Shown here one piece after another: positions 31,446 through 46,461 of a DNA stretch of 64,000 bases (within the stretch, counting starts at the first letter, position 1; every line of letters starts with the position of its first letter). Where the stretch lies: assembly GCF_947497025.1 (NCBI RefSeq), contig NZ_CANMFC010000002.1:310001-374000 (forward strand). Reading direction: 5' to 3'. The DNA comes from an uncultured Kushneria sp. GTDB lineage: Bacteria; Pseudomonadota; Gammaproteobacteria; Pseudomonadales; Halomonadaceae. Position numbers and translations under genes: made by a program. The notes below the pieces were generated by a model, which was not told the origin of the DNA, did no database searches, and saw only the letters and a program-made list of their open reading frames with translations.

Positions 31446-31489
31446 GTTTGCTGTACGAACATCAGTTTGTGATACGAACCAGGCTATTG
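31446..31489 (-). promoter_or_regulatory. Operator-like element upstream of dctP (pca-type site)
   Basis: Read on the minus strand: CTGGTTCGTATCACAAAC, five bases, then GTTCGTACAGCAAAC. It matches the pcaI and pcaH sites in order and spacing (GTTCG to GTTC 19 bases). CAATAG (31484-31489) and TTGACT (31504-31509) are -10- and -35-like elements just upstream, though at a short 14-base spacing. Confidence 0.7.
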
Positions 31490-31548
31490 GCAGACCTGAT
31501 TCGAGTCAAATGGACCAAAGCAGTATCCGTTCCCGGGCCGGATGACGG

Positions 31549-33408
31549 TCAGCTCCGCTGCGCCCGGTGACGCGACTGAGCTGCCAGTCGGATCGGGGCA
31601 TTGACAGCGCCGAACTGATGGTAGTCCCCCCGGCGTTCGACGATCTCGAAATAAAAGCGGTCAGCAAAGAAATCGGTGTAGGCATGCAGGAATTCGCCGC
31701 CCTCTTCGTTGCGATCGTAAAGAATGTTGCGCGCGCGCATCGCCTCCAGCACCGCGTCATCAAGGTCAAACCGCGCGGCCAGGTCATCGTAGTAGTTGGC
31801 GGGGATGCCCAGCAGCACCAGGCCGTTGGCGACCAACTGATCAATCGTTGCGAAAATATCGTGGGTGCCCAGCGCGATCTGCTGAATGCCGCCGCGGCCT
31901 TCACTCATGAAGCGTCCCGGCAGTGTTTCCTGGGCGCTTGAGACATTGAGCGGCAGGCGAATGGTGCCATCCCGACTGGTCATGGCCTGACTGACCACCA
32001 GTCCGTGAGGGTCGACCAGTTCATGCTCACTGCCGGCCTCAAAGTCGAACACCGTCTTGAACAGCAGCTGCCAGCCCAGTAGCTGGGTGGGGGCAACGAC
32101 CGTCGAGAGATGATCGACGCCGGCAATGCCGGCCTCTGCGCCCCGAGGCGTTTCAAACAGCTCAAAGTCGGTCTGCCACTGTCTGTCACGCGCCGTTTCA
32201 GGATCGACCAGATAGATGAGGCTGTTTTCCATGCCTCTGAGCGCGGGAATCTGCAGCTCGCCCGGCCCGACCGGCCCTTCATGGCTGCGCGCCTTGAAGG
32301 CCCTGGCACGGGCCATGGTCAGCAAGGGGTCGTTGTCGCGAACCCCGATGGCGCACACCGAAATGCCGTGCACCAGCCGAAAGGTGTGGGCAAAGCTGTC
32401 GGTTTCCATGTTGAGCACCAGATGCAGATCCCCCTGGCGCCAGAGCTGGATGTTCTTGGAGCGGTGATGCCCGATGTGGCGAAAGCCCAGTGCCGCAATC
32501 ATCTGCTTCAGCGGCGCGGCCCGTTCTTCATCAACGGTGAACTCCAGAAAATGGATGCCGTTGAAAACGGGTGACGGGGGCAGGGATGAAAAATAAGGGG
32601 TATTGGGTGCCATGTTCTCGACCAGAATCATCGAGCGCATGCCATCCAGGGCGGTATCCCGGGGCGGGGCGGTTCGAAAGCTGGTGTTGAAAATCTCGTG
32701 AGACAGCGGGCCGTTATAGCCGGTACGGCCCAGCGCCTTCATGAACGCTTCGATATTCAGCCGTCCCTGACCTGGGAAGCAGCGGTAATGGCGGCTCCAG
32801 TTGAGCAGATCCATATCCAGCAACGGAGCGTCCGCCAGATGGACCAGAAAGATACGGTCTCCCGGGATCTCTGCGATCGGGTCGGTGGACAGACCGGGCG
32901 CCAGCGCATGAAAGCTGTCGAGCACCAGCCCCAGAGCCGGATGATCGGCGCGCTGCACCATCTCCCAGGCGTCACGATAGTCATTGATGTGGCGTCCCCA
33001 GGCCAATGCCTCGAAGCCGATGCGCAGTCCATGGGCATGGGCGCGCTCGGCCAGTTCGCGCAGGTCTGCCACGATCTGTTCACGCTCGCCGGAGCTCTGG
33101 GGAGAGGTGTTACTGCAGACCAGCATGAAATCGGTGCCCAGTGCCTTCATCAGGTCAAACTTGCGTTCGGCCCGCTCGAAGTTGCGCCGGCGCTGCGGCT
33201 CGGGCATGCCTTCAAAGTCGCGAAAGGGCTGCAGGGCAGTGATGGAAAGCCCCTGTGAAGTGGCCATTTCGCGCACTTCCTCGGGAGTGCCCCCCCAGGA
33301 AAGCAGGTCGTTTTCGAAAATCTCGACGCCCTGGAAACCGGCACGAGCAATGGCCTCGAGCTTGTCGCTGAGATCGCCACTGATGGAAACGGTTGCGATC
33401 GAACGCAT
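31549..33408 (-). CDS. quiC: 3-dehydroshikimate dehydratase (two-domain QuiC type)
   Basis: A 619-residue enzyme turning 3-dehydroshikimate into protocatechuate. Residues 1-280 are a TIM-barrel of the sugar-phosphate isomerase/AP-endonuclease-2 type with metal-ligand segments IGFEALAWG, LGLVLDSFH and LSHEIFNTSF. Residues 290-610 are two VOC modules like 4-hydroxyphenylpyruvate dioxygenase (GIHFLEFTVDEE, GVDHLSTVV, GGIQQIALGTHDI, YFEIVERRGDY). This fusion is the known QuiC1/QsuB architecture; the C-terminal part is not a true HPPD. It is the last gene of the pcaI-to-quiC minus-strand run and links the shikimate dehydrogenase product to the protocatechuate pathway. Confidence 0.93.
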   Translation of the reverse strand: MRSIATVSISGDLSDKLEAIARAGFQGVEIFENDLLSWGGTPEEVREMATSQGLSITALQPFRDFEGMPEPQRRRNFERAERKFDLMKALGTDFMLVCSNTSPQSSGEREQIVADLRELAERAHAHGLRIGFEALAWGRHINDYRDAWEMVQRADHPALGLVLDSFHALAPGLSTDPIAEIPGDRIFLVHLADAPLLDMDLLNWSRHYRCFPGQGRLNIEAFMKALGRTGYNGPLSHEIFNTSFRTAPPRDTALDGMRSMILVENMAPNTPYFSSLPPSPVFNGIHFLEFTVDEERAAPLKQMIAALGFRHIGHHRSKNIQLWRQGDLHLVLNMETDSFAHTFRLVHGISVCAIGVRDNDPLLTMARARAFKARSHEGPVGPGELQIPALRGMENSLIYLVDPETARDRQWQTDFELFETPRGAEAGIAGVDHLSTVVAPTQLLGWQLLFKTVFDFEAGSEHELVDPHGLVVSQAMTSRDGTIRLPLNVSSAQETLPGRFMSEGRGGIQQIALGTHDIFATIDQLVANGLVLLGIPANYYDDLAARFDLDDAVLEAMRARNILYDRNEEGGEFLHAYTDFFADRFYFEIVERRGDYHQFGAVNAPIRLAAQSRHRAQRS

Positions 33409-33487
33409 GGGATGGCTCCTGGTAGCTGAATCTTTCGCCGTCCGGAGGACTGTCCGGCCGGCATGAATGCTGTCCTGGGACGCGTGA

Positions 33488-44955: not shown

Positions 44956-45102
44956 CACCAATCTTCCGGTCGGGCATGGTCTGCCAGACTAAAGTCATCG
45001 AGTAATCCGCGGATATTGTCATTTCGTCGTTCATTTGTGCCTTAAAGGCGTGCGCTGTGAAGCAGAAAATGAGATCTATCATTTCTGTAACGGAAGTTCG
45101 CG

Positions 45103-46287
45103 ATGCGTACAAAAGTGGCCATTATCGGCGCCGGCCCGGCGGGCCTGCTGCTGGGGCAGCTGCTGCAGCGTCAGGGTATCGACAACGTCATTCTCGAGCG
45201 GCGCTCAGGAGACTACGTGCTGGGACGAATTCGCGCCGGCGTACTGGAGCAGGGCACGGTGGATCTATTGCGCGAGGCGGGTGTCGACCAGCGCATGAGT
45301 GAGGAGGGCATGCCTCATGATGGCTTTGAGCTTGCCTTTGATAACCGTCGGGTCCGTGTCGATCTTGCCGGGCTTACCGGTGGCCGATCCGTCATGGTGT
45401 ACGGCCAGACCGAAGTTACCCGCGATCTGATGGAGGCCCGGGAAGCGGCCGGTGCCACGACCATCTATGAAGCCGACAACGTCGCGCTGCACGATCTTGA
45501 TACCGAGCAACCTTGGGTGTCCTTTGAAAGCGAAGGGGAAACCCGTCGCCTGGAGTGTGACTATGTGGCCGGCTGTGATGGTTATCACGGCGTGTCACGT
45601 CGTTCGATTCCCGAAGATCGCCTTGAAATCTTCGAGCGGGTCTATCCGTTTGGCTGGCTGGGCATGCTCTCCGATACGCCCCCGGTGTCTGACGAGCTGA
45701 TCTATTCAAGTCACACACGAGGCTTTGCCCTGTGCAGCATGCGTTCCCGGACCCGTAGCCGTTACTACCTGCAGGTACCGGCGGGTGAAAGGGTCGAGGA
45801 CTGGTCCGACGAGCGCTTCTGGGAGGAGCTCAGGGCGCGCCTGCCCGAGGATATTGCCAGAACACTGGTCACCGGGCCCGCCATCGAGAAAAGCATCGCG
45901 CCACTGCGCAGTGTTGTGGTCGAGCCCATGCAGTACGGAAGGCTTTTTCTGGCCGGTGATGCCGCCCATATCGTCCCGCCCACCGGCGCCAAGGGTCTGA
46001 ACCTGGCCGCCAGCGATGTGCATACCCTTTATCACCTGCTGGTCAGAATCTACCGGGAAGGCCGCGCCGATCTCATCTCTCGCTACTCCGACATATGCCT
46101 GCGGCGTGTCTGGAAGGCCGAACGCTTTTCATGGTGGATGACCACCAATCTGCACCGCTTTTCCGATAAGCAAGACTTCGAACGGCGCCTTCAGCAGGCC
46201 GAGCTGGATTACTGCACAGGTTCCCGTGCGGGGCTTGTCACCATTGCCGAAAACTATGTGGGGTTGCCCTTTGAGGCGCTGGAGTAA
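45103..46287 (+). CDS. pobA: 4-hydroxybenzoate 3-monooxygenase
   Basis: A 394-residue FAD monooxygenase hydroxylating 4-hydroxybenzoate to protocatechuate with NADPH and oxygen. The FAD-binding GAGPAG is at 9-14, the family's [15 protein letters not shown] near 42-56, the dual-function DG motif in CDGYHGVSR and the flavin-ribityl motif [18 protein letters not shown] near 285-302. Length equals the Pseudomonas enzyme. It feeds PcaHG. The promoter region contains the near-palindrome ATGAGATCTATCAT (45069-45082), a possible site for the divergent regulator; it lacks the pca-type operator. Confidence 0.95.
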
Positions 46288-46423
46288 TCGCTCATCACAT
46301 GCTCCCGTATTTCAATGTGGCCGGGCTGCGCCATGTCATGTGGCCGCGTAGTGATGCAGGGCAGCGGCGCATCACCCCGCTCAACTAAAGTCGGTTTTCG
46401 CTCCAGCCACGGTTGGTTTATGT

Positions 46424-46461
46424 TGTTCCTCAAAGCGAACTTTTGTACTTATTGCGAACAA
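46424..46461 (+). promoter_or_regulatory. Operator-like element upstream of the second TRAP system
   Basis: GTTCC (46424), GCGAAC (46435-46440), GTAC (46445) and GCGAAC (46454-46459). The two GCGAAC half-sites are 19 bases apart, the same as at pcaB/pcaR, and TTTTGTAC is shared with that site. Confidence 0.6.

Follow-up and report, generated by a model that had tools for sequence, protein, structure and literature searches.

The 64-kb stretch of Kushneria DNA analyzed here (the window) sits in contig 2 of a 3.53-Mb genome. It contains an island with genes for a tripartite ATP-independent periplasmic (TRAP) transporter, quiC, aroE, pcaDC, an atoE-like gene, pcaF, pcaJ, pcaI, pcaB, pcaR, pcaH, pcaG, an AraC-type gene, pobA, and a second TRAP system. 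The dctP genes of the two TRAP systems are called dctP1 and dctP2. Short repeats stand in front of several of these genes, and we describe the repeats together with their presumed reader, the IclR-family regulator PcaR. Several of the gene names (e.g., QuiC, PcaB, PcaI, and PcaJ) rest on family scores below the cut-off, and gene starts, such as that of dctP1 at 31385, were chosen from the reading frame.

Predicted tandem operators at dctP1, pcaI, and pcaH

The 15-mer GTTCRTAYMGCRAAC occurs exactly in front of dctP1 (31446-31460, minus strand), pcaI (39952-39966, minus strand), and pcaH (42477-42491, plus strand), and there is no fourth exact copy in the genome. A preliminary description of this DNA had combined the 15-mer with a single GTTCG half-site. 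The 15-mer is present at all three places as described, but the "half-site" belongs to a second near-palindrome, of which it forms the left half. Because every copy of the 15-mer has such a partner at 19 or 20 bp (Table 1), the unit consists of two 15-bp near-palindromes and not of a palindrome plus a half-site. Measured center to center, all three pairs fall within the 18-22 bp that define a tandem operator. The GTT/AAC ends of the IclR group 1 15-bp palindrome are present at the six palindromes, one of which ends in AAG; the ends were compared by eye with those of the published group 1 consensus (GKTYCRYW3-4RYGRAMC, GTT-11-AAC subgroup). The resemblance of the pcaI and pcaH sites over about 45 bp, reported earlier, was seen again with a one-base gap and includes the CATAAT/CATAGT boxes.

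Specificity lies in the tandem arrangement and not in the single 15-mer. When a relaxed tandem pattern with at most three mismatches was run over the whole genome, a spacing of 19 returned only dctP1 and pcaH (none for the reversed control) and a spacing of 20 returned only pcaI (one for the reversed control). Because these patterns were derived from the very sites they match, independent evidence has to come from conservation in other genomes. The single 15-mer with at most three mismatches matched 19 times in the window against 10.3 expected, a number reached by 2 of 100 shuffles. The preliminary description had allowed that the pattern might be just as common upstream of unrelated genes; this does not hold for the tandem. 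The single 15-mer is not enriched once mismatches are permitted. One stray copy of the single 15-mer with one mismatch, on contig C10 (L005), was set aside when no pathway gene was recognized among the listed open reading frames (ORFs) there, by eye and with no family search.

Conservation of the sites and their link to pcaR

PcaR relatives at E <= 1e-40 were found in 92 of 151 family genomes, our own included. We took up to 20 kb around pcaR from 60 of the 91 other pcaR genomes (1.18 Mb in total) and scanned these regions with a weight matrix built from the six palindromes of dctP1, pcaI, and pcaH in the window. The scan, which the preliminary description had suggested, bore out the pattern: 177 of 229 sites with at least 11 bits fell in the 5.4% of bases that lie between -250 and +40 of eight kinds of gene start. 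Column-permuted matrices gave at most 16 sites near starts in 39 of 40 cases. The remaining one gave 237 matches, 177 of them near starts; its only change was an exchange of the two G columns, which leaves it almost identical to the real matrix.

PcaI-like genes are present in 48 of the 60 related regions (exceptions include L072, L076, and L086), and every one of the 48 has a site upstream of pcaI. A partner palindrome of at least 6 bits lies 19 bp away in 44 of these regions and 20 bp away in 3. When the best pair is taken instead, the spacing is 19 bp in 45 regions and 20 bp in 3, the latter being three related Kushneria genomes; the window's own spacing is also 20 bp. Among the named relatives that have this regulator, Kushneria phyllosphaerae, K. 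avicenniae, and K. sinocarnis are the closest. The 19-bp tandem at dctP1 is kept in K. phyllosphaerae, and the pcaH site is kept in both K. phyllosphaerae and K. avicenniae. A loss of the sites in relatives, which would have spoken against them, was thus not seen for the tandem.

A strict form of the pcaI-type tandem matched 46 of the 151 family genomes, all 46 of them among the 92 with pcaR and none among the 59 without it (Fisher, 2.8e-13, a value that ignores shared ancestry). The reversed pattern matched 0 of 151. We also asked whether a different IclR protein might read the tandem sites and set this idea aside, as the 59 family genomes that lack pcaR have no strict tandem.

Among other gene starts in the related regions, a site of at least 11 bits was seen at 3 of 47 for pcaDC, 1 of 21 for aroE, and 0 of 47 for pcaF. 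Many relatives carry pcaHG behind pcaDC in the same direction, and pcaHG may need no operator of its own in that position. In three regions (L085, L090, and L099, from genomes G115, G136, and G101, the first two Salinicola), pcaR lies near quiC and the fetched region has no pcaI match. The tandem is found farther along the same contig, outside the fetched region, and PcaR may act at a distance in these strains.

Position of the predicted operators relative to predicted promoters

A promoter could be read in front of each tandem in the window (Table 1). Because the predicted promoters end 1-2 bp before the operators, the palindrome pair would cover the transcription start. The same register is seen in relatives: 47 of 48 pcaI promoters have a TTGAC whose start is 29-32 bp upstream of the first palindrome. 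In the 100 bp from the first pcaI palindrome downstream, TTGAC was seen once. The position of the operators relative to the predicted promoters is repressor-like.

Table 1. Coordinates and strands of the genes, predicted promoters, and predicted operators in the window
Feature	Position	Strand	Description
dctP1 operator (predicted)	31446-31479	-	Palindromes GTTCGTATCACAAAC (31465-31479) and GTTCGTACAGCAAAC (31446-31460), centers 19 bp apart
pcaI-operon operator (predicted)	39952-39986	-	Palindromes GTTCGCATTGCAAAC (39972-39986) and GTTCATATAGCGAAC (39952-39966), centers 20 bp apart
pcaHG operator (predicted)	42458-42491	+	Palindromes GTTCGCATCACAAAG (42458-42472) and GTTCATATCGCGAAC (42477-42491), centers 19 bp apart
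pcaB-pcaR three-box operator (predicted)	41379-41403	+	Outer half-site GCGACC (41379-41384), N4, palindrome GTACGTTGAGCGAAC (41389-41403)
Second-TRAP three-box operator (predicted)	46435-46459	+	Outer half-site GCGAAC (46435-46440) and palindrome GTACTTATTGCGAAC (46445-46459)
pobA candidate operator	45096-45115	-	Palindrome GTACGCATCGCGAAC (45096-45110) with CTTTT flank; over start codon
dctP1 promoter (predicted)	31481-31509	-	TTGACT, 17 bp, TAGCCT; ends 1 bp before operator; read from sequence
pcaI promoter (predicted)	39989-40017	-	TTGACG, 17 bp, ATAATC (or CATAAT at 16 bp); ends 2 bp before operator
pcaHG promoter (predicted)	42428-42456	+	TTGCCT, 17 bp, TAGTTT; ends 1 bp before operator; read from sequence
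First TRAP transporter dctP, dctQ, dctM	28427-31385	-	Presumed target; TIGR00787 and TIGR00786 above cut-off; small subunit weakly matched
pcaI-pcaJ-pcaF-atoE-pcaDC-aroE-quiC	31549-39936	-	Presumed target; putatively one operon from the pcaI promoter
pcaB	40194-41342	-	Presumed target; divergent from pcaR; best family TIGR02426, score below its cut-off
pcaR, IclR-family regulator, PcaR/PcaU/PobR subfamily	41498-42298	+	TIGR02431; presumed reader of all sites
pcaH and pcaG, protocatechuate 3,4-dioxygenase	42569-43963	+	Presumed target; TIGR02422, TIGR02423
AraC-type gene, pobA neighbor	44062-44961		
pobA, 4-hydroxybenzoate 3-monooxygenase	45103-46287	+	Candidate target; TIGR02360

Three-box sites at pcaB/pcaR and dctP2

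A second form of the site lies between pcaB and pcaR and in front of dctP2. The two places have GTACAAAAG in common, as the preliminary description had noted, but the outer half-site at pcaB/pcaR is GCGACC and not the GCGAAC given there. The three-repeat anatomy proposed earlier likewise applies to part of the set: it describes the pcaR and dctP2 sites, but dctP1, pcaI, and pcaH have four half-sites. The arrangement GCGACC-N4-GTACGTTGAGCGAAC is identical in K. phyllosphaerae and K. avicenniae and represents the Kushneria form of a three-box site seen in relatives. Among single sites in the window other than the six used for the matrix, the best were those at pobA (45096, 14.5 bits), dctP2 (46445, 12.8 bits), and pcaB/pcaR (41389, 11.3 bits), and the best outside the island reached 9.9 bits. 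The left half of all three palindromes is GTAC.

Comparison with relatives revealed the structure of the site at pcaR. At least 10 bits were reached by a site before 54 of 60 pcaR starts. In 30 of these 54, a CGNAC half-site starts exactly 9 bp upstream of the palindrome, and no other offset occurs more than three times. These 30 sites thus have the PcaU-type arrangement of a palindrome with an outer direct half-site at a fixed offset, of which the window's pcaB/pcaR half-site differs by one base. TATGMT follows the pcaR palindrome by 2-3 bp in 33 relatives. In relatives, the palindrome of the three-box site is flanked by the -35 position and the -10 box.

The variant can also be traced through the sequence shared by its members. 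Exact matches to CTTTTGTAC-N5-RCGAAC occur at three places only in the genome, pcaB/pcaR, pobA, and dctP2, and K. avicenniae has it at the same three. In K. phyllosphaerae the pcaB/pcaR copy is exact, and those at pobA and dctP2 have one mismatch. Allowing one mismatch also gave matches at other places, two each in our genome and K. phyllosphaerae and one in G082; the reversed control gave five in 10 genomes of the genus.

The second TRAP system (46511-48982) looks decayed, with both dctP2 and dctM2 broken. Relative to K. avicenniae, about 415 bp are missing from within dctP2 (junction 47028/47029), and dctM2 has a one-base frame change near 47906. The matching frames in K. avicenniae are 391 and 449 amino acids long, and those of the window are split. 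The island was first described as having two TRAP systems for uptake; in this strain the second is truncated and frameshifted. As a consequence, the dctP2 operator may be a relic here, unless the assembly is wrong.

A candidate site over the pobA start codon

The preliminary description had stated that pobA lacks the site. We found instead that the highest-scoring palindrome in the window beyond the six matrix members, GTACGCATCGCGAAC, lies on the minus strand over the start codon of this gene and contains the exact CTTTTGTAC-N5-RCGAAC variant. It spans bases -7 to +8 of pobA, and part of the match is coding sequence. Sites of IclR regulators are reported to peak with centers at -3 to +1 relative to gene starts (PMC8222616). 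A pobA match is present in 69 genomes, and we compared the loci of 34 of them. Scores of 14.5-15.0 bits at this position were reached in three genomes, the window's own and those of K. phyllosphaerae and K. avicenniae; the other 31 loci examined do not have the palindrome there and score 8.3 at most. In K. sinocarnis, whose pobA is only 50% identical, a site of 16.1 bits lies at about -65. Thus, pobA carries a candidate site of the second form over its start codon, which may function there.

Upstream of pobA, a block at 45011-45044 (GGATATTGTCATTTCGTCGTYCATTTGTGCCTTA) is nearly unchanged in three Kushneria genomes. The divergent AraC-type regulator may bind at this block. Neither pcaR nor pobA had a match, at the thresholds used, in 6 of 10 genomes of the genus (G015, G036, G061, G072, G082, and G090), which suggests that the island was gained or lost within Kushneria. 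A second IclR-family regulator is encoded at 53145-54005, about 11 kb from pcaR.

PcaR and its possible effector

The pcaR product scored 292 bits against TIGR02431 (cut-off, 284.75) when scanned as a 327-amino-acid ORF. Its gene is linked to protocatechuate-branch genes, as is characteristic of the PcaR/PcaU/PobR subfamily. Within the DNA-binding domain, GMNRARARRFLLTL does not vary in an alignment of nine PcaR proteins, eight of which share 66-94% identity with the ninth, that of the window. This segment probably includes the recognition helix.

The closest solved structures are 8eju and 2ia2. Residues Y151, T177, S240, N257, and S259 were studied in the succinate complex of Pseudomonas putida PcaR, 8eju (PMC12455658), and identical residues stand at the five positions of the window protein when it is aligned to that structure. 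2g7u and 9e6a differ at the N257 position. Because these five residues are kept, the comparison with solved structures favors a dicarboxylate such as beta-ketoadipate, which appears at least as likely an effector as protocatechuate. Protocatechuate, named in the preliminary description, is an assumption in this role. Deletion of two TRAP loci in Vibrio natriegens is reported to have caused no detectable defect in protocatechuate uptake or growth (PMC13253662). Protocatechuate uptake by the first TRAP system is therefore only a guess.

Discussion

We consider it probable that the repeats are operators of PcaR, and that PcaR represses the genes behind them until a ligand relieves the repression. 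At dctP1, pcaI, and pcaH, each of the two 15-bp palindromes would be occupied by a PcaR dimer, and the two dimers would lie on the same side of the double helix, separated by two turns. Bound directly downstream of the -10 box, the dimers would cover the transcription start and block expression. At its own promoter, PcaR would bind the three-box site, a palindrome with an outer direct half-site, which would provide autorepression and shared control of the divergent pcaB. A pathway metabolite, more likely beta-ketoadipate or another dicarboxylate than protocatechuate, would then bind PcaR and relieve repression. Relief would induce uptake by the first TRAP transporter, funneling of quinate and shikimate (aroE and quiC), and ring cleavage together. 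A single PcaR regulon, as proposed earlier, is well supported by the confinement of the tandem to the island, by the site before pcaI in 48 of 48 regions, and by the lack of the strict tandem in the 59 genomes without pcaR. The sign of control has precedents: the repression that native P. putida PcaR exerts at its operator is lifted by succinate (PMC12455658), and Rhodococcus opacus PcaR is described as a repressor (PMC9582017).

Several observations weigh against this model. The single 15-mer with at most two mismatches is not enriched genome-wide (40 matches compared to 49 for the reversed pattern). In the window, the outer box is weak at dctP2 (pair score 19.8) and at pcaB/pcaR (9.2), and both scores are within the range of permuted matrices (mean 14.5, maximum 26.3 in 200 trials); since both fall below that maximum, the case for these two places cannot rest on the pair score alone. 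Two related regions, L072 and L086, have no site before pcaR. The content of the regulon beyond pcaI and pcaR varies among relatives: a site of at least 11 bits precedes quiC in 7 of 20 regions, pcaH in 2 of 23, and dctP1-like genes in 2 of 11, and dctP2-like genes have a site in 7 of 15 loci (7 of 37 when counted as BLAST segments, the query being broken). Of the 92 genomes with pcaR, 46 have no match to the strict tandem. The failure of the mismatched 15-mer to exceed its reversed control would also be expected from chance similarity among short palindromes. Chance, however, would not confine the tandem to the island, hold its spacing fixed, conserve it across the family, and make it co-occur with pcaR. 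We judge this explanation very improbable overall and take it as refuted for the dctP1, pcaI, and pcaH sites on these four grounds.

The sites could belong to PcaR and yet serve activation, with inducer-bound dimers downstream remodeling the promoter, or PcaR could do both. Acinetobacter PcaU and PobR are called transcriptional activators in the titles of references, so the sign of control cannot be derived from the subfamily. In P. putida, beta-ketoadipate induces pca genes with PcaR, and activation depends on site position (PMC12455658). The same report describes an engineered promoter with a downstream site whose activity fell as succinate rose, so that ligand-bound PcaR repressed; this counts against relief by ligand as a step at our downstream sites. 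In that work PcaR could activate from upstream sites, but it repressed when its site lay at the -10 box or downstream of it (PMC12455658). In the window, the operators follow the predicted -10 box at dctP1, pcaI, and pcaH, and with TTGAC at a fixed distance upstream in 47 of 48 pcaI promoters of relatives, help from PcaR seems unnecessary. We regard activation as unlikely.

Another regulator might read the three-box variant at pcaB/pcaR, pobA, and dctP2, for example the AraC-type protein, whose gene adjoins pobA, or the IclR protein encoded at 53145-54005. The left halves of these palindromes have GTAC where the tandem sites have GTTC, and their common CTTTTGTAC is absent from dctP1, pcaI, and pcaH. 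Many relatives, however, have a canonical GTTCGNNNNTCGAAC palindrome at the pcaB/pcaR place with the same offset to the outer half-site. In the 10 genus genomes, exact variant copies are limited to three close genomes with pcaR and occur in none of the 6 without it, although K. sinocarnis has pcaR and no exact copy. We think that a different reader is improbable.

If PcaR reads all of the sites, it may use two grammars. A four-box operator just after the -10 box would serve the catabolic and uptake genes, and a three-box site would serve its own promoter. One Kushneria lineage would have gained a three-box-like site over the pobA start codon. Bound there, PcaR would block initiation or elongation for the enzyme with which 4-hydroxybenzoate catabolism begins, and this step would be coupled to downstream flux. 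In this arrangement pcaHG, apart from the pcaI operon, would have its own tandem. We offer the two-grammar picture tentatively, as a possibility that could well fail.

The elements of the system are familiar. Tandem palindromes, three-box sites, and IclR-type Pca repressors have been published, and neither the architecture nor the subfamily nor this kind of regulon is new. IclR palindromes in tandem, 18-22 nt apart, were reported for 94 orthologous groups and three-box sites for 32 (PMC8222616); the tandems here have spacings of 19-20 bp. The pcaB/pcaR and dctP2 sites resemble the operators of PcaU, PobR, and HmgR in having a palindrome and an outer direct half-site (PMC8222616), unlike dctP1, pcaI, and pcaH with their two palindromes and four half-sites. 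Corynebacterium glutamicum PcaR, with the motif GTTCGC-N3-GCGAAC (PMC8222616), shares the half-site and spacing seen in many relatives (GTTCGY-N3-RCGAAC), targets of the pcaIJ and pcaF/D type, and the repression predicted here (PMC8222616, PMC9582017). It differs in that our sites are tandem palindromes or three-box sites. In addition, separate operators precede pcaHG and a TRAP transporter here and quiC lies behind one, whereas pcaHG of C. glutamicum is under PcaO (PMC9582017). P. putida PcaR (GTTCGATAATCGCAC; 8eju) is like the window protein in its subfamily, its 15-bp GTTCG palindrome, and the five pocket residues. The motif center differs, and P. putida PcaR activates or represses by site position (PMC12455658). 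Titles and abstract openings in the open-access literature, among the matches listed, described no PcaR operators in Halomonadaceae.

The sites form a natural series of four-box, three-box, and start-codon operators. A single protein presumably reads them all, and the segment with which it is presumed to contact DNA does not vary among the nine aligned proteins. Such a series could be used to test how position sets repression or activation by IclR regulators, a mechanism called unclear in work on P. putida PcaR (PMC12455658). For the strain itself, the island holds genes for degrading plant phenolic acids that seem to be controlled by one PcaR. The analysis thereby predicts a regulon, and specifies its putative operators exactly, in a bacterial family known for salt tolerance.

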